In this document: one piece after another, positions 48,016 through 54,716 of the stretch | Layout of the letters: every line of letters begins with the position of its first letter | Numbering within the stretch: the first letter of the stretch is position 1 | Origin: Maribacter arenosus | GTDB taxonomy: Bacteria > Bacteroidota > Bacteroidia > Flavobacteriales > Flavobacteriaceae | Assembly (NCBI RefSeq): GCF_014610845.1 | Contig: NZ_JABTCG010000001.1 | Span: forward strand, 496,001 to 560,000 | DNA: 64,000 nucleotides | Direction of reading: 5' to 3' | The notes under the pieces: model-generated | What the model was told of the DNA's origin: nothing | The model's database searches: none | The model's input: only the letters and a program-made list of their open reading frames with translations | Translations under genes and position numbers: made by a program

Positions 48016-48615
48016 ATGATCGAGCCAACACATCAACACTTCAAAATGTATAAACCCTTTGGGATGTTAAGTCAATTGACATCGAATGAGGACCGACAAT
48101 TGCGTAAGAAACGGTTTTTAAGTGAACTTTTTGATTTTCCTGAAGGAAGTATGCCTATTGGCAGACTCGATGAAAAGTCCGAAGGGCTTTTGTTGATGAC
48201 AACCGATGGAAAATTAAGTGATGCCATTAACCGTTCAGGCGTAGAAAAGGAATATTATGCCCAGCTCGATGGAAAAATAACCGATGAGGCAATTGACCAA
48301 TTGCGCTTGGGCATCGAAATTGGCCTCTGGGGGCAACACTATACCACCAAACCCTGCAAAGTCACAAAACTAACCAAAACCCCTACCCTGCCCGACCCGG
48401 ATAAAAAACTTCGTATAGGCACCCATCGCCCCAATTCTTGGATCAGTATGACATTAACCGAAGGTAAATTTCGGCAGGTTCGAAAGATGACGGCGGCTGT
48501 AGGGTTCCCTACTTTAAGATTGGTACGGGTACGGATTGGGAATATGCTATTGGGTGATACAACAGTGGGAAGGGTCGTCCCAATTACCCATTTTGATCTT
48601 TCAACACCTTCATGA
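48016..48615 (+). CDS. rluE: Pseudouridine synthase, RluE/RsuA type
   Basis: A 199-residue pseudouridine synthase of the RsuA/RluE group. The catalytic Asp52 lies in IGRLDEKSEGLLL, and the C-terminal TEGKFRQVRKMTAAVGFPTLRLVRVRIG is the conserved second core segment. There is no S4 domain, as in RluE, so the likely target is U2457 of 23S rRNA. Its 3' end overlaps the convergent adenylate cyclase gene by 32 bp. Confidence 0.82.
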   Translation: MIEPTHQHFKMYKPFGMLSQLTSNEDRQLRKKRFLSELFDFPEGSMPIGRLDEKSEGLLLMTTDGKLSDAINRSGVEKEYYAQLDGKITDEAIDQLRLGIEIGLWGQHYTTKPCKVTKLTKTPTLPDPDKKLRIGTHRPNSWISMTLTEGKFRQVRKMTAAVGFPTLRLVRVRIGNMLLGDTTVGRVVPITHFDLSTPS

Positions 48616-50443
48616 TAGGGGCCTGGCTATTTTCTTTTATGCGATTCACAAAATACATTTTCATCATCCCCCTGTTTTTGACAGGTATTTCACCGCGATA
48701 CTCACACTCGGCATCTTCTTTTATCAAAGCATAGGTGTTTTCCGAGATATTGATCCTGCCAGGCTCTGACATCGATTCCATTCGGGAAGCGACATTAACG
48801 GCATCGCCCCATATATCATAAGCGAATTTCTTGGTGCCCACCACCCCGGCCACTACGGGCCCTGTATTGATACCAATACGGATATCGAAAGTTAATTCGC
48901 TGGTAGCAACATCTTTTTTCGTCGTTTCGACAAATTCAACAATTTCAAAGGCCGCTGAAACCATTCTGTGGGCGTGATCTACGGTATTATCATGCAAACC
49001 CCCAGCGCACATATAAGCATCGCCAATTGTTTTGATCTTCTCTAGGCCATATTTTTCCATTATCGCATCGAATTTTGAAAAGTAAAAGCCTACGGTTTCT
49101 ACCAGGGCCTCTGGCGATAGCTTTTCCGAATAACTGGTAAAGCCTTTAAAATCTGTGAAGAGGACCGTTACCGCATCGTATTTTTTGGCTTTTACGGTAC
49201 CATTTGCCTTTAATTCGGCTGCGGTTTCCTTGGGTAGGATATTCAATAACAAATTATCGGAACGATCCCGTTCTTCCTCAATGATCTGTTTGGTTTTGCG
49301 TATGAATGTATTACGCCGAAACAAACCAAAGGCCAAGAGACCAATTAAGAAGAGGGCAACTGCCGTTGCTATTGCAATGTTGCGTTGATTTTTACGTCTT
49401 TGGTCCAATAGATCTACCTCAATTTGTTTTTGGGAAACCTCATAGTTGGTTCGCTGGTCCGCTAATTGTTGAACTGTTTCAATATTTAATAGACTGTCCC
49501 TATATGCGATATGATCTTTGTAATGTTTAAAAGATTTCACCTGATTTCCCATTATCTCGTACAACTCGGATAATTTCAGGTTGGCATCACCGATTTGTTC
49601 TTTTAGGCCATATTGTTCTGCAAGCGTAAGACTTTTTTTTGCGTAATCTATAGCGGTTTGAAGCTTCTCTTTTTCCAAATAGATATCGGCCATTGCAATA
49701 AGATAAACACTGATAGGGTAATAATCTCCCGATTCTTCCAAAATAAGAATGGCTTCATTAATGTTTTTTTCGGCAAGGTTATTTTTTCCGGTATTGGCGT
49801 ATACCATACCAATATTACCCAGGTTATAAGCCTTTCCAACATCATAATCAGCTTTTTCAAAAAGGGCGCCAGATTCATTGAAATAGGTTAAGGCCGAATC
49901 GTATTTTTTATTGGTAAGCAGCGCATCTCCGGCATTTAAAATAAAAGATGCCAATGGAATTGTATCCCGAGCCTTACGTAAAGCAGAAATAGCCTTATTG
50001 TAATAAAGCATTGCATTATTATGATTGTCAGAGATAGCGTAAACATCAGCAATCGCTCCGTAAGCTCCTCCCTCTAGAGTAATATTGTTTACTTGCCGGG
50101 CTATTTCAGCACTTTTAAAATAAGCTGTAATTGCTTCCTCAATATCGCCCTTAAGATTATGTGCACTTCCTTTTTGAAAATAACCTTGGGATAGATAAGG
50201 ATAATTGCCATTTTCCTTCGACAATTTAATTAGTTCATTTGCATACTGCAAAGACAATTCAAGATTGTTAATTTCATTGAAACTAAGGTTTCGAAGTAAT
50301 TCCAATTTTCTTTCCTCATTTATAGTATCGGCTTTATAAATATGAACTAGGCTATCTGCTACGCGTTGGTCTTGGGCGCTCACGTAATATATTATTAAAT
50401 AAAAAAAGCCGATTATGTAATAGACTTTTCTTTTTAAGCGCAT
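48584..50443 (-). CDS. TPR-transmembrane class III adenylate cyclase (copy B)
   Basis: A 619-residue protein: a signal sequence (YIIGFFYLIIYYVSAQ), about seven TPR units (about 30-310), a coiled coil, one transmembrane helix (about 355-376, IAIATAVALFLIGLLAFGLF) and a class III cyclase domain. All catalytic residues are present: metal-binding Asp431 and Asp475, the adenine-specifying Lys471/Asp543 pair, and transition-state Asn550 and Arg554. It should convert ATP to cAMP in the cytoplasm in response to the TPR region in the periplasm. It lies 1 bp from the beta-trefoil gene and is a paralogue of the copy at 51443-53299. The ATG at 50443 is preferred over the frame start at 50503. Confidence 0.85.
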   Translation of the reverse strand: MRLKRKVYYIIGFFYLIIYYVSAQDQRVADSLVHIYKADTINEERKLELLRNLSFNEINNLELSLQYANELIKLSKENGNYPYLSQGYFQKGSAHNLKGDIEEAITAYFKSAEIARQVNNITLEGGAYGAIADVYAISDNHNNAMLYYNKAISALRKARDTIPLASFILNAGDALLTNKKYDSALTYFNESGALFEKADYDVGKAYNLGNIGMVYANTGKNNLAEKNINEAILILEESGDYYPISVYLIAMADIYLEKEKLQTAIDYAKKSLTLAEQYGLKEQIGDANLKLSELYEIMGNQVKSFKHYKDHIAYRDSLLNIETVQQLADQRTNYEVSQKQIEVDLLDQRRKNQRNIAIATAVALFLIGLLAFGLFRRNTFIRKTKQIIEEERDRSDNLLLNILPKETAAELKANGTVKAKKYDAVTVLFTDFKGFTSYSEKLSPEALVETVGFYFSKFDAIMEKYGLEKIKTIGDAYMCAGGLHDNTVDHAHRMVSAAFEIVEFVETTKKDVATSELTFDIRIGINTGPVVAGVVGTKKFAYDIWGDAVNVASRMESMSEPGRINISENTYALIKEDAECEYRGEIPVKNRGMMKMYFVNRIKENSQAPIMKVLKDQNG

Positions 50444-50444
50444 A

Positions 50445-51326
50445 TTATTGTGTAGGATTAACTTTAATTCTAGGGTCAATTTTAAGTTGTTGACCAGTAC
50501 CATTCACTTTGAAGAATATGGTATATGTTTCATCTTCACCCCCTGTGCCAGCTTGCACTGTACCGGTCACAGTTTCTGGGTTACCACTACCTTGTAAAAT
50601 ACCATTCCCACCAAATACATTAGAACTACCCGGAACATTTTCTTTTTTCACCTGAGTTATATCAATGACAGTTGAAGAAGGAGGAGTCGTTTCTCCTCGC
50701 CAAATAACCTGATCGCCGACATTTACGCTACGTGAAAAGTTTTCATTTGTGGTTTGGGATTTATCCTGTCCAAAACTACAATAAGTATCGACCGTTTGGG
50801 GAGTAAGGGATGTTGCATGCGCTGCGTCAACGTAAAGCGTAATTGTAGGTATCAATTTCCAAAGAAATCCATTGGGATCGCCATCATTAAGAGGATATTG
50901 CCAAACTTTTTTGTCGCTAGGTGCTGCACCCCAACTTCCTGCTAACAAGCCAAATCCGCTAACTTTGTTTATAATGTTTCCCTGGTCGTTAATGCTCCAA
51001 AGAAATCCTTCAAGATCATAATTGCCATTAGTAGTCCCATCGGTTAGGGGATACTGCCACACGTTTCTATCACTAGGTACTTTGCCCCAACTTCCCGCTA
51101 ATAAAAACATTCCGCTAACCTTATTCATGATTCTATAGTATCCAGTATTATCAGGTATAATCTGCCATAAGAATCCATCTAAATCATAGTTGCCATTCGT
51201 ATAGTTATCGGTTAGGGCATACTGCCACACTGCTCTATCGCTAGGCGATTTCCCCCAACTTCCTGCCAATAAGAACATTCCACTAACTTGGTTTTCAATT
51301 CTGTAATAACCTGTTTGATCAATCAT
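50445..51326 (-). CDS. Three-repeat beta-trefoil protein with ID-P-R-IKV C-terminal domain
   Basis: A 293-residue protein without a recognisable signal peptide. Residues 6-157 are three near-identical repeats of about 50 residues (GYYRI-x-N-x-VSGMFLLAGSWG, PSD-x-x-VWQYPLTD, FLW-x-I) in the spacing of a ricin-type beta-trefoil, likely a carbohydrate-binding fold. Residues 162-290 (ITLYVDAAHATSLT, GDQVIWRGE, STVIDITQVKKEN, KIDPRIKVNP) are a beta-rich domain also found in the protein at 53330-53821. It precedes the cyclase copy B gene by 1 bp, so the two are translationally coupled. No known family name is evident for the C-terminal domain. Confidence 0.75.
   Translation of the reverse strand: MIDQTGYYRIENQVSGMFLLAGSWGKSPSDRAVWQYALTDNYTNGNYDLDGFLWQIIPDNTGYYRIMNKVSGMFLLAGSWGKVPSDRNVWQYPLTDGTTNGNYDLEGFLWSINDQGNIINKVSGFGLLAGSWGAAPSDKKVWQYPLNDGDPNGFLWKLIPTITLYVDAAHATSLTPQTVDTYCSFGQDKSQTTNENFSRSVNVGDQVIWRGETTPPSSTVIDITQVKKENVPGSSNVFGGNGILQGSGNPETVTGTVQAGTGGEDETYTIFFKVNGTGQQLKIDPRIKVNPTQ
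50853..51311 (-). repeat. Three tandem protein-coding repeats (beta-trefoil units)
   Basis: Three copies of about 50 codons, beginning at 51311, 51143 and near 50978, share the core VSGMFLLAGSWG or VSGFGLLAGSWG, PSDRxVWQYPL and GFLWxI. The strong identity among copies suggests recent internal duplication. Confidence 0.7.
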
Positions 51327-51442
51327 GGTTCGTTTTTATTTAGGTTAGCTAATAAAAGTTTTTCTAACAATGAATATAGTTTAGCTTAAAAAACAATGGA
51401 AACAGTACTGGACGAAAAGCCCAAATTAATGTCCGAAGGGTC

Positions 51443-53299
51443 TCATTTATTTACCAAATCTTTTTTATGGGAGCCATTTTTAATCGCATTCACATAATAC
51501 ATCTTCATCATCCCCCTGTTTTTTACTTGTATTTCCCCGCGATACTCGACATCAGCGATATCTTTTATAAGCTCGTATGTATTTGCCGAGACGTTAATTC
51601 TTCCGGGTTCGGCCATGGTTTCCATACGGGAGGCTACGTTAACGGTATCGCCCCAAATATCATAGGAGAATTTTTTACTGCCCACCACCCCTGCAACGAC
51701 CATCCCCGTATTGATCCCGATACGGGTATCGAAATGAATTTGACCTTCTTGGGAATTCCTCTTTGCCTCTTTTACAAAATCCATGATTTCGAATGCAGCC
51801 AAAACCATTTTATGGGCATGGTCCTCGGTTGGGTATGGTAAGCCCCCGGCACACATGTAGGAATCGCCAATGGTCTTTATCTTTTCCAGACCATATTTCT
51901 CCATGATGTCATCGAATTTGGTAAAGTAAAATCCTATGGTTTCCACCAATTTTTCAGGGTCTAAATTTTCGGAATAATGGGTGAAGCCCTTAAAATCGGT
52001 AAACAATACGGTTACTGATTCAAATTTCTTGGCTACGACCTTCCCATTTTCCTTTAATTCATCTGCGGTATCCTTAGGCAAAACATTAAGCAAGAGCGTA
52101 ACGGAACGATCCCGTTCTTTCTCAATGATCTGTTTGGTTTTTCTTATAAACCTATTGCGTCTGTATAATCCAAAGGCCAAAAGACCAATCAAGAATAAGG
52201 CAATGGCCGTCGCAATTACCACGATACGTTGGTTTTCTTGTTTTTGATTCAGTAAATCAACTTCAACCTGTTTTCTGGCAACCTCTAGGTTGGCCATATT
52301 CTGAACGTCGGTAATATTCTTAACACTATCCCTAAACGTAATATGACGTTTATAATATTTGAGCGATTCTTGGGCATCACCTTTTTTCTCATACAATTCC
52401 GATAGTTTTAAATTGGCGTCGCTGATTTGATCTTTGAGCCCGAATTGCTGTGCCAGCTCCAGGCTTCTTTCCGCATACCCAAATGCAGCATCCAAATCAT
52501 CCCGCTGCACATACATATCTGCCATATAGGTAAGATAAACACAGATGGGATAATAATCCCCAAGTTCTTCGAGCAACGAAATTGCGCCACTGATGTTTTC
52601 CTCGGCAATGGTATTTTGCCCCAATTGGGCATAGGCCAAGCCCATATTCCCTAGATTATAGGCCATTCCGATTTTGTAGTCGAAGGCTTTGAAAATAGGT
52701 CCAGATTCCTTGAAAAACAGTAAGGCAGAATCTGGCTTGGCTAAATTTAGATTATACTCGTCCCCCAAATTCTCCAAAGAAGTGGCATAAAGCAACGAAT
52801 CCCCTCTTTCTTTAAAGATTTTTATTCCATTTTTATAATACCGGATTGTATTTTGTGCATTACCCATGCCGGAATATACCGCAGCCATGGCAATATAAAA
52901 TAAAGCTAGATCTTTATCGCTTTCTTCTGCTTCGGCCAATTCAACACCTTTGTAAAAGCTTTCCAATGCTTGTGACAGATTACCTTTGAGCCTAAGGGCA
53001 TTCCCTTTTTGTAAATAGGCTCCAATAACCCTTTTTGTAGAATCCATAGCCTTTGCCTTACGAAGGAGCTCTTCACTAAATCGCAATGAATTCTCAGGAT
53101 CAGGATGATTTGCGGCCAGGGCATTTAAAAGTCGTAAACGATCTTTTTCCTCAAAGTTGCCTGAGGTATAAATCTGTTCCAGGCTATCGGCAACTGCCTG
53201 GTTCTGGCCATGCATACGGGAGCATATCACAAAAAAAAGGACCAACAGTAGACCGGCCTTTTTTTTGAATGGCATTCGTATGGAACACGTATTTCCCAT
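51443..53299 (-). CDS. TPR-transmembrane class III adenylate cyclase (copy A)
   Basis: A 618-residue paralogue of the neighbouring cyclase with the same order: signal sequence (AGLLLVLFFVICSRMHGQ), TPR region (about 35-330), transmembrane helix (about 359-378) and class III cyclase. Asp435 and Asp479 (metal), Lys475 and Asp547 (adenine selection), Asn554 and Arg558 (transition state) are intact, so an adenylate cyclase is expected. An internal ATG at 53275 (MPFKKKAG) is an equally good start. It lies 30 bp after the 163-residue IDPKIKV-domain gene, the same arrangement as the other pair. Confidence 0.87.
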   Translation of the reverse strand: MGNTCSIRMPFKKKAGLLLVLFFVICSRMHGQNQAVADSLEQIYTSGNFEEKDRLRLLNALAANHPDPENSLRFSEELLRKAKAMDSTKRVIGAYLQKGNALRLKGNLSQALESFYKGVELAEAEESDKDLALFYIAMAAVYSGMGNAQNTIRYYKNGIKIFKERGDSLLYATSLENLGDEYNLNLAKPDSALLFFKESGPIFKAFDYKIGMAYNLGNMGLAYAQLGQNTIAEENISGAISLLEELGDYYPICVYLTYMADMYVQRDDLDAAFGYAERSLELAQQFGLKDQISDANLKLSELYEKKGDAQESLKYYKRHITFRDSVKNITDVQNMANLEVARKQVEVDLLNQKQENQRIVVIATAIALFLIGLLAFGLYRRNRFIRKTKQIIEKERDRSVTLLLNVLPKDTADELKENGKVVAKKFESVTVLFTDFKGFTHYSENLDPEKLVETIGFYFTKFDDIMEKYGLEKIKTIGDSYMCAGGLPYPTEDHAHKMVLAAFEIMDFVKEAKRNSQEGQIHFDTRIGINTGMVVAGVVGSKKFSYDIWGDTVNVASRMETMAEPGRINVSANTYELIKDIADVEYRGEIQVKNRGMMKMYYVNAIKNGSHKKDLVNK

Positions 53300-53329
53300 C
53301 TGTATTTATGAATAGCTAGGTATAAAGGT

Positions 53330-53821
53330 TTAACTACCTCCACTTACTTTGATTTTAGGATCAATTTCAAAAGAAGTGGTTCCTATGGTAAAGCGGATAA
53401 AATATTTATAAACGTTATTTTTTGTATTGCCCTTTACTTTCTCTTTGATTTTCTTTTTCCCATTCATTTTTTTTCCTTTACTCTTTTTATTTTTGAACAC
53501 CTTCCCCCTATTGGGTTTATTGGGGTCATCCATTATTTCAATTTCTTCTATATCGACAATCGCTCCTGATGATGATACGCCTTCCCACTCTATCTCATCG
53601 TTTTCATTCACAATGATCGTAAATTCTTCAGGTTCGTCACTATTTTCAACTGCAGTGCCCTCGCTTGCTGAAAAAGAAAATGCCTTTTTGTTATTACCGT
53701 TGTTTAATTGTTGGGTGTCGACATGTAAGGTAACGACATGTGTCATTTGCGCGATGGAAATGCCGGTAAACACAAGTAACATATTTACCAATAAAAAAAT
53801 GCGTGGTTTTATGGTTTTCAT
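53330..53821 (-). CDS. Exported protein with ID-P-K-IKV domain
   Basis: A 163-residue protein with a signal peptide (RIFLLVNMLLVFTGISIAQ). The mature part, VTLHVDTQQLNN, IIVNENDEIEWEGVSSSG, VDIEEIEIM and a Lys-rich loop (about 110-130), ends SFEIDPKIKVSGGS. It matches the C-terminal domain of the beta-trefoil protein over its whole length, with the same order of blocks. It is the first gene of the cyclase operon. A binding or regulatory role for the TPR domain of the cyclase is a reasonable inference because the pairing occurs twice. Confidence 0.7.
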   Translation of the reverse strand: MKTIKPRIFLLVNMLLVFTGISIAQMTHVVTLHVDTQQLNNGNNKKAFSFSASEGTAVENSDEPEEFTIIVNENDEIEWEGVSSSGAIVDIEEIEIMDDPNKPNRGKVFKNKKSKGKKMNGKKKIKEKVKGNTKNNVYKYFIRFTIGTTSFEIDPKIKVSGGS

Positions 53822-54131: not shown

Positions 54132-54716
54132 ATGAACCAACCAAAAACTCCGCAGAATATAAAAGATAAGGTAATATCAAAAAAACCTACCACAATTAGT
54201 AGCCACACGGAGGAGCTCGTGGATCATTATTGGGGAAGTATCAATTATATTTCTTCCTTAATCAGGGCTTCAGAAATAAAAGCGGGCCTTATTCTTTCTT
54301 TTTATGGTATCCTTTTTAACATTATCTACCAAAATCTTGGTTTTGTTATCGAACTCGGTTCAAAATACATTTTTCTATATGTGTTGTTAGGGTTGTATTT
54401 TATCTTCACCACGGCCTCGATTTACTTTAGTATTCGATGTTTTATGCCGCATATTGAAGGGAAATATGAAAAGAATATGTTTTTCTTCGGTGATGTGATT
54501 ACGAAGTTTGGCAACATCAAGGAGTTTGCCAAAACATTTTATAAAGTTAGCTTAAGCGAAGTTGAATTGTTCGACCAATTGGGCCAACAGATATATATAA
54601 ATTCAAAAATCGCAGCGCTAAAATTCAAAAATGTAAACCGTTCCATTTTTCTTTTGGCTATCGGATTGATTCTACTTTTTATAATAACCCTTTCTTGTAT
54701 ATTGCTATCTCTTTGA
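54132..54716 (+). CDS. PycTM/DUF5706-like membrane protein (Pycsar effector family)
   Basis: A 194-residue protein with helices at about 45-70, 75-100 and 168-192. Its segments RASEIKAGLILSFYGILF, then FFFGDVITKFGN, and DQLGQQIYINSKIAALKFKNVNRS follow the order of the Pycsar transmembrane effector family (formerly DUF5706). In Pycsar defence such effectors open a membrane in response to a cyclic pyrimidine nucleotide made by a neighbouring cyclase. Here the neighbouring cyclases look adenylate-type, so the connection is uncertain; the same family also occurs outside defence loci. Divergent from the cyclase operon. Confidence 0.72.
   Translation: MNQPKTPQNIKDKVISKKPTTISSHTEELVDHYWGSINYISSLIRASEIKAGLILSFYGILFNIIYQNLGFVIELGSKYIFLYVLLGLYFIFTTASIYFSIRCFMPHIEGKYEKNMFFFGDVITKFGNIKEFAKTFYKVSLSEVELFDQLGQQIYINSKIAALKFKNVNRSIFLLAIGLILLFIITLSCILLSL

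Follow-up and report, generated by a model that had tools for sequence, protein, structure and literature searches.

Pycsar systems couple a class III nucleotide cyclase, PycC, to an effector such as PycTM or PycTIR; their cyclases bear pyrimidine-type recognition residues and produce cUMP or cCMP. In these systems PycTM is reported to make membrane pores (PMC11224242). Membrane receptor class III adenylate cyclases form another described group, in which a sensor, a transmembrane (TM) segment and a cyclase domain follow each other. A further group is held together by its fold: according to PMC9060813, PixA proteins are inclusion-body proteins of the stationary phase and AidA is needed for virulence in C. 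elegans, and MakC and MakD are placed mostly in the cytosol by PMC11484084. Here, we describe a locus in a 64,000-nucleotide stretch of the Maribacter arenosus genome (the whole stretch is referred to as the window), in which a small protein is twice followed by a class III cyclase with a tetratricopeptide repeat (TPR) ectodomain. The small proteins share a PixA/AidA-like domain, for which the label PIXL was coined in this work. By sequence, the combination appears to be a real, near-obligate receptor module that joins known parts in a new way; no description of a PixA/TPR-cyclase system was found among the open-access papers listed by literature searches. The "PixA" in PMC12282931 is an unrelated PilZ protein cited there and was set aside.

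The locus resembles each of the described systems in part. The fold predicted for PIXL is that of the PixA/AidA family (PF12306) and of MakC/MakD, but the window proteins miss PF12306 and the usual neighbor of PIXL is a TPR sensor. A class III cyclase gene adjoining a PycTM gene is shared with Pycsar; in contrast to Pycsar, the window cyclases are TPR membrane receptors with adenylate-type residues, a PIXL gene is added, and the PycTM of the window may be the partner of a different cyclase. The sensor-TM-cyclase layout is that of membrane receptor class III adenylate cyclases, and the nearest solved catalytic domains in the PDB are adenylate cyclases, but here one TPR subclass is accompanied by a near-obligate PixA-fold partner gene.

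Results

The tandem double unit of small protein and TPR-TM-class III cyclase, reported by an earlier sequence-only reading, was confirmed. On the minus strand the order is PIXL protein 1 (53330..53821; 163 amino acids, aa), TPR receptor-cyclase 1 (51443..53299; 618 aa), PIXL protein 2 (50445..51326; 293 aa) and TPR receptor-cyclase 2 (48584..50443; ~619 aa). The open reading frame (ORF) of cyclase 2 is listed from 50503, but its likelier start is the ATG at 50443, one base past the PIXL protein 2 stop codon. PIXL protein 1 consists of an N-terminal hydrophobic leader, a PixA/AidA-like beta-sandwich, a Lys-rich loop and the C-terminus IDPKIKVSGGS. In the loop 16 of 40 residues (101-140) are Lys, a putative polyanion-binding patch. 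PIXL protein 2 combines an N-terminal ricin-type beta-trefoil (RicinB_lectin_2, E 5.2e-10; 40.3 bits with a curated cut-off of 25.6), as had been noticed before, with a C-terminal PIXL domain (50445..50849, minus strand). It has no signal peptide; the open frame amounts to just 296 aa and contains no hydrophobic segment.

A 23-row PIXL profile was run against 299 genomes of the family, yielding 50 matches in 33 genomes (two matches are those of the window). Downstream of 47 of these, on the same strand and within 1.5 kb, a TPR+cyclase gene was found; in some of the 47 loci a second PIXL gene intervenes, and the two window matches were assigned by hand. A phylum-wide scan detected PIXL in 13 of 395 genomes, five of them outside the family. 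Among its 12 further sites, eight lie upstream of a TPR+cyclase gene and two upstream of a TPR kinase gene, one precedes a TPR gene truncated at a contig end, and one is a weak unlinked match. The suspicion that the linkage might be confined to this locus was thereby removed. In a test that did not begin from PIXL, named genomes were scanned with the cyclase alignment, giving 79 loci as the best among the matches listed. Within these, PIXL adjoins the cyclase in 22 of 22 loci of the window TPR subclass, defined by a TPR part resembling that of the window at E 1e-44 or better (upstream in 20, downstream in two, both Gillisia). In the other 57 loci (best TPR match 4e-30; five without any) no PIXL match occurs anywhere in the stretch examined, which comprised at least 600 nucleotides (nt) upstream of the cyclase in 48 loci and less in nine. 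All seed rows were PIXL-linked, which sets the definition of the subclass and not its neighbors.

After removal of duplicates, PIXL was found by profile at 66 of 67 subclass cyclases, and at the 67th a PIXL-like gene unscored by the profile is present by eye; 66/67 is not an independent rate, because most loci were retrieved through PIXL. For the set of 67 PIXL-cyclase pairs, the two window pairs were added, and the second cyclase of L105 was excluded as well as L163, a Lacinutrix himadriensis locus in which the cyclase frame is broken into two ORFs and the upstream PIXL gene is intact. The later profile was built without L087 and the weakly matching L127, and 66 of the 67 pairs entered the trees. 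Named bearers include Eudoraea, Xanthomarina, Maribacter, Arenibacter, Christiangramia, Gillisia, Mangrovimonas, Flavobacterium degerlachei, Robiginitalea, Polaribacter and Lacinutrix, together with metagenome-assembled genomes (MAGs) of Cyclobacteriaceae and Saprospiraceae. Other flanking genes are weakly conserved: the commonest flank family, PycTM, occurs in 10 of 48 loci and the next in six. Because the flanks vary and the pairing spans families, a chance duplication or an ordinary conserved neighborhood was rejected as an explanation. True PixA, found in 4 of 99 relatives, has no TPR-cyclase within ~1.5 kb at any of its four loci.

The C-terminal domains of the two small proteins are 27% identical over 99 columns (two-sequence E 5e-5) and fall into one profile family, so the earlier claim of a shared domain holds; searches started from either domain give overlapping sets (18 and 15 of 249 family genomes). 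In an alignment of 51 sequences the mean column identity is 18%, and W50, Y109, D125 and P126 are invariant. Single-sequence searches of the small proteins in Pfam and NCBIfam gave nothing above curated cut-offs except the ricin trefoil. PF12306 matches neither window protein at E<=1; it matches 4 of 23 aligned PIXL relatives (best 8.2e-6). Run against the PDB, the 51-row profile matched MakC (8rqy; E 3.2e-5) and, less strongly, MakD (0.027). An alignment-based AlphaFold2 (AF2) model of the domain from protein 2 reached a pLDDT of 95.9; a single-sequence fold of the whole 293-aa protein was unusable (pLDDT 34). With VIA-align the model has the PixA/AidA beta-sandwich fold, its nearest solved structures being MakD (6tct; Z 11.9, root-mean-square deviation (rmsd) 2.7, 115 residues aligned), MakC (8rqy; 11.4, 2.9, 119) and PixA (4lzk; 10.3, 3.0, 117), followed by a Chitinophaga protein (9.2, 3.3, 115) and SO1698 (8.7, 4.4, 115). 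Because of these profile and structure matches, we regard PIXL as a remote PixA-fold family.

The late Asp-Pro motif of PIXL is also present in MakC (8rqy) and, by eye, in three true PixA proteins. SO1698 (DUF1888), an endopeptidase which a legend in PMC11655445 calls self-cleaving and which resembles PIXL in the fold match given above, has mutant entries at D116 and P117; by end offsets, inferred from ranges, these lie within one residue of D125 and P126 of PIXL. Since PixA and MakC share the motif, it may be structural, and self-cleavage was demoted from a main interpretation to a bold variant.

PIXL proteins vary in architecture. Six proteins carry a ricin trefoil N-terminal to PIXL (window protein 2, L089, the second of L148, L149, L158 and L161; that of L148 scores under the cut-off), and none of them has an evident leader. 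The locus L148, from a Maribacter MAG, contains another PIXL gene, a cyclase and a close relative of window PIXL protein 2, i.e. the first three genes of the window layout, and its contig stops after the third. A PIXL protein of this locus (L148:112-1248) carries several ~46-aa repeats, with no Pfam family above cut-off, ahead of the final IDPRI strand. Lipoprotein-like PIXL proteins occur at L068, L090 and L094, and a TM tail is present at the C-terminus of two kinase-linked ones. At L091, L092 and L129 two PIXL genes stand ahead of one cyclase, the second having lost the otherwise kept late Asp-Pro (L129 by eye).

The two window cyclases are 56% identical across 608 columns and have the same domain order, in agreement with the sequence-only reading. 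In cyclase 1 a leader is followed by the TPR ectodomain, a TM segment (aa 359-377), a linker and the class III cyclase domain (aa 422-604). Both proteins match Guanylate_cyc (E 2.6e-56 and 4.6e-59) and TPR_12 (E 2.6e-19 and 2.9e-22), and each has a single strong TM segment, close to residue 358, as well as an N-terminal leader that is shorter and stays below the threshold of a 19-residue hydropathy scan. The class III adenylate cyclase residues (two metal Asp, the Lys/Asp specificity pair, Asn/Arg) are present in both and were likewise found as described before; the motifs 'EKIKTIGD' and 'YDIWGD' are also intact in both. In 17 aligned cyclases D435, D479, K475, D547 and N554 (cyclase 1 numbering) are invariant; the Arg is replaced by His in two. 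In this class the Lys/Asp pair denotes adenylate-cyclase specificity. At the recognition positions, located by spacing from the catalytic Asp in our own alignment, the window cyclases have F/K/I compared with F/R/Q in EaPycC. PADLOC PycC matched the window cyclases weakly (1.7e-14 and 3.3e-17), with matches confined to the common cyclase domain. Clade D AnPycC likewise uses F and K at recognition positions, according to PMC11224242. Judged by its residues, the enzyme most likely produces cyclic AMP (cAMP). At E<=1e-10 these are the only two full-length TPR-cyclases of the genome, two other matches comprising one the cyclase part and one the TPR part alone. Ten matches to cyclic mononucleotide (cNMP) binding domains were found in the genome, nine of which exceed the cut-off.

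The sequence-only reading had proposed the small protein as a ligand-binding or sensing partner of the periplasmic TPR domain. The partnership is upheld by the recurrence of a dedicated module across many genera of Flavobacteriaceae and in a few further families of Bacteroidota, and a link to the TPR part is strengthened by two genomes of one other genus, in which a TPR-HisKA-HATPase kinase is encoded behind two PIXL genes (2 of 201 genomes searched of its family). The kinase TPR parts match the window TPR at E 7e-116 and 1e-122. Because the same TPR type occurs with PIXL and a histidine kinase, the data support that PIXL tracks the TPR type and not the cyclase. Leaders were called with our own simple hydropathy rule for the 67 pairs; 29 PIXL proteins and, at the same threshold, 64 partner cyclases have one. 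PIXL leader state changes five times on the TPR tree, 8-9 times on the PIXL tree and 12 times on the catalytic-domain tree, compared with ~21.5 changes when shuffled; resamples of 120 columns gave means of 6.7, 7.9 and 14.3, respectively. When neighbors are ranked by TPR, the nearest PIXL neighbor falls within the closest 5% in 38 of 66 cases; when they are ranked by catalytic domain, it does so in 27 of the 66.

Divergent from PIXL protein 1, on the plus strand, a gene for a 194-aa protein (54132..54716) matches PF18967 (1.6e-14; 54.6 bits with a cut-off of 27.2) and PADLOC PycTM (2.5e-26). This Pycsar-type TM effector gene, just outside the coordinates of the tandem unit, had been overlooked earlier, as had the PixA/AidA-like nature of the small proteins. 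An effector beside a cyclase, as in Pycsar, is present here by proximity alone. Of the 67 other modules, 12 also have a PycTM gene at a distance of up to 0.8 kb: eight of these genes are downstream on the same strand, two of them overlapping the cyclase by 20 nt, one is convergent, and three are divergent as in the window (one with a short intervening gene). No PycTM was found in the stretch examined around the 57 non-subclass cyclases of the seeded scan, among the matches listed. A second PycTM protein, encoded elsewhere in the window genome, has an open frame of 408 aa.

The PycTM domain, detected in 116 of 149 family genomes, is common and, among the matches listed, resides mostly in ~400-aa proteins. 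From the 40 short ones among those matches, 34 were examined, the remaining six adjoining modules already in the data set. Twenty-one of the 34 belong to the window subfamily (E 1e-50 or better with its own profile), and for 18 of these a class III cyclase is found with at most one gene in between, immediately adjacent in 14; among the 18, one cyclase is just a fragment of 142 aa and one locus (L258) is module L154 again. None of the 13 more remote short PycTM has a class III cyclase nearby. Twelve of the 18 cyclases have ~346 aa, with a receiver domain seen by eye in L240. A recurrent chromosomal set of a ~124-aa protein (by eye resembling a receiver at L238 and L240), the ~346-aa receiver-class III cyclase and a short PycTM was observed in L238-L244, L246-L248, L250 and L251, and L254 has a 390-aa receiver-cyclase with PycTM. 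The recurrent set represents a possible two-component-driven cyclase-PycTM circuit. The window PycTM is 60-69% identical to the other divergent PycTM (L074, L100, L134). Among these three genomes G037 has a receiver cyclase, and none was found in G189 and G103 at E<=1e-60, so there the TPR-cyclase is the nearer candidate partner.

Discussion

The partnership of PIXL and TPR-cyclase is well supported by the comparative sequence data, and we tentatively favor, at close to an even chance, that PIXL acts as the dedicated partner, and probably as the input subunit, of the TPR receptor-cyclase. The proposal draws on the domains, the near-obligate linkage, the exchange of cyclase and histidine kinase behind one TPR type, and the proximity of PycTM. 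We infer that PIXL, with its remote PixA/AidA fold and sometimes a ricin-type trefoil, would contact the TPR sensor spanning the inner membrane and that the pair would detect a cue, whereupon the cytoplasmic class III cyclase would make a cyclic mononucleotide, most likely cAMP. A plausible output is the PycTM-type membrane protein beside about one-fifth of the loci, a candidate local target that the messenger might gate; at loci without PycTM, general cNMP-binding proteins may be receivers.

Several results weigh against this interpretation. Three of the 50 PIXL matches of the family scan lack a TPR-cyclase: L066 has no such gene, and L076 and L087 adjoin another membrane TPR type (N-terminus 'ELKRRNVF' or 'ELQRRHVF') with no cyclase domain; conversely, an intermediate TPR-cyclase (L260) has PycTM and no PIXL. 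Architectural variety is the chief difficulty for a simple periplasmic-ligand model. In particular, 38 of the 67 paired PIXL proteins, including the 293-aa protein of the window, have no signal peptide and therefore should not reach the periplasmic TPR domain by the usual route; the purely periplasmic role assumed in the sequence-only reading did not stand. The catalytic tree, with its more frequent leader-state changes, may merely be noisier because the catalytic domain is more conserved. Distance-matrix co-evolution is weak and does not favor the TPR over the catalytic domain, so this part of the proposed tie to TPR was lost: partial correlations are 0.045 for PIXL-TPR (515 of 2000 permutations as high) and 0.123 for PIXL-catalytic (70 of 2000), and tree distances give 0.103 (81 of 1000) and 0.151 (26 of 1000). 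As to the output, most modules show no PycTM nearby. The window PycTM is 61-62% identical to PycTM beside receiver cyclases and just 28-40% identical to seven PycTM at TPR-cyclase 3' ends, and the window genome has a receiver cyclase elsewhere (L137:1477-2517; 346 aa, with 75% identity to the L240 enzyme), accompanied by a 124-aa neighbor protein and without PycTM in its 1.5-kb flanks. For these reasons the window PycTM may serve the receiver cyclase and not the TPR-cyclases, its gene seeming to have moved away from the former in this genome, and a firm claim that it answers to the TPR-cyclases was withdrawn.

The many leaderless PIXL proteins and the six with a trefoil would also suit an opposite direction of control, in which PIXL is the output, a lectin-like protein kept in store or set free, with the adjoining cyclase governing how it is produced or released. 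The inclusion bodies of PixA, the virulence role of AidA and the mainly cytosolic MakC/MakD, as described in the sources given above, fit such a role. We nevertheless consider it unlikely, as 29 of 67 PIXL proteins carry a leader and some are lipoprotein-like, and the strict pairing with one TPR subclass, not with other TPR-cyclases, survives with a histidine kinase.

Ranking below this is a Pycsar-like defense, in which phage or envelope damage would lead the cyclase product to open PycTM and stop growth, with PIXL as an accessory regulator. The reported pore formation, the PycTM genes at the window and the 12 other modules, with their largely same-strand and partly overlapping arrangement, and the lack of a receiver cyclase in two of the three other divergent-layout genomes speak for it. 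It is made rather improbable by the many modules without PycTM, by the adenylate-type cyclase residues, and by the subfamily also pairing with receiver-domain cyclases, whose PycTM the window copy resembles.

Quite doubtful is an envelope-sensing relative of Pycsar, with PixA-fold, often lectin-bearing ligands acting on the TPR receptor-cyclase and a messenger opening PycTM. The ligands might be exported, or leaderless and freed on damage or lysis. If so, PixA/AidA-fold proteins would be receptor ligands and Pycsar-type effectors would gain an extracytoplasmic input. In a still bolder variant, the invariant late Asp-Pro would be self-cleaved, releasing a short peptide from the C-terminus for the TPR domain to read.

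Very unlikely in our view is a role of PIXL as an adaptor or chaperone, cytoplasmic or on the membrane side, that would fold, dimerize or inhibit the cyclase without sensing. Leaderless forms, the intracellular accessory role ascribed to MakC/MakD in PMC11484084 and the TM tails of two kinase-linked PIXL proteins are compatible with it; leader-bearing and lipoprotein-like forms, recurring lectin fusions and a leader state that follows the TPR tree argue against it.

With PIXL preferred as the probable input subunit, the pairing points to an unnamed bacterial sensing module. Structures of the PixA/AidA/MakCD fold are solved, and the portions of the literature cited here offer no agreed function for it; near-obligate pairing with a swappable cyclase or kinase output may provide a direct handle on that function. 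The link to PycTM raises the possibility that membrane receptors or receiver-domain cyclases drive effectors of the Pycsar type as well.

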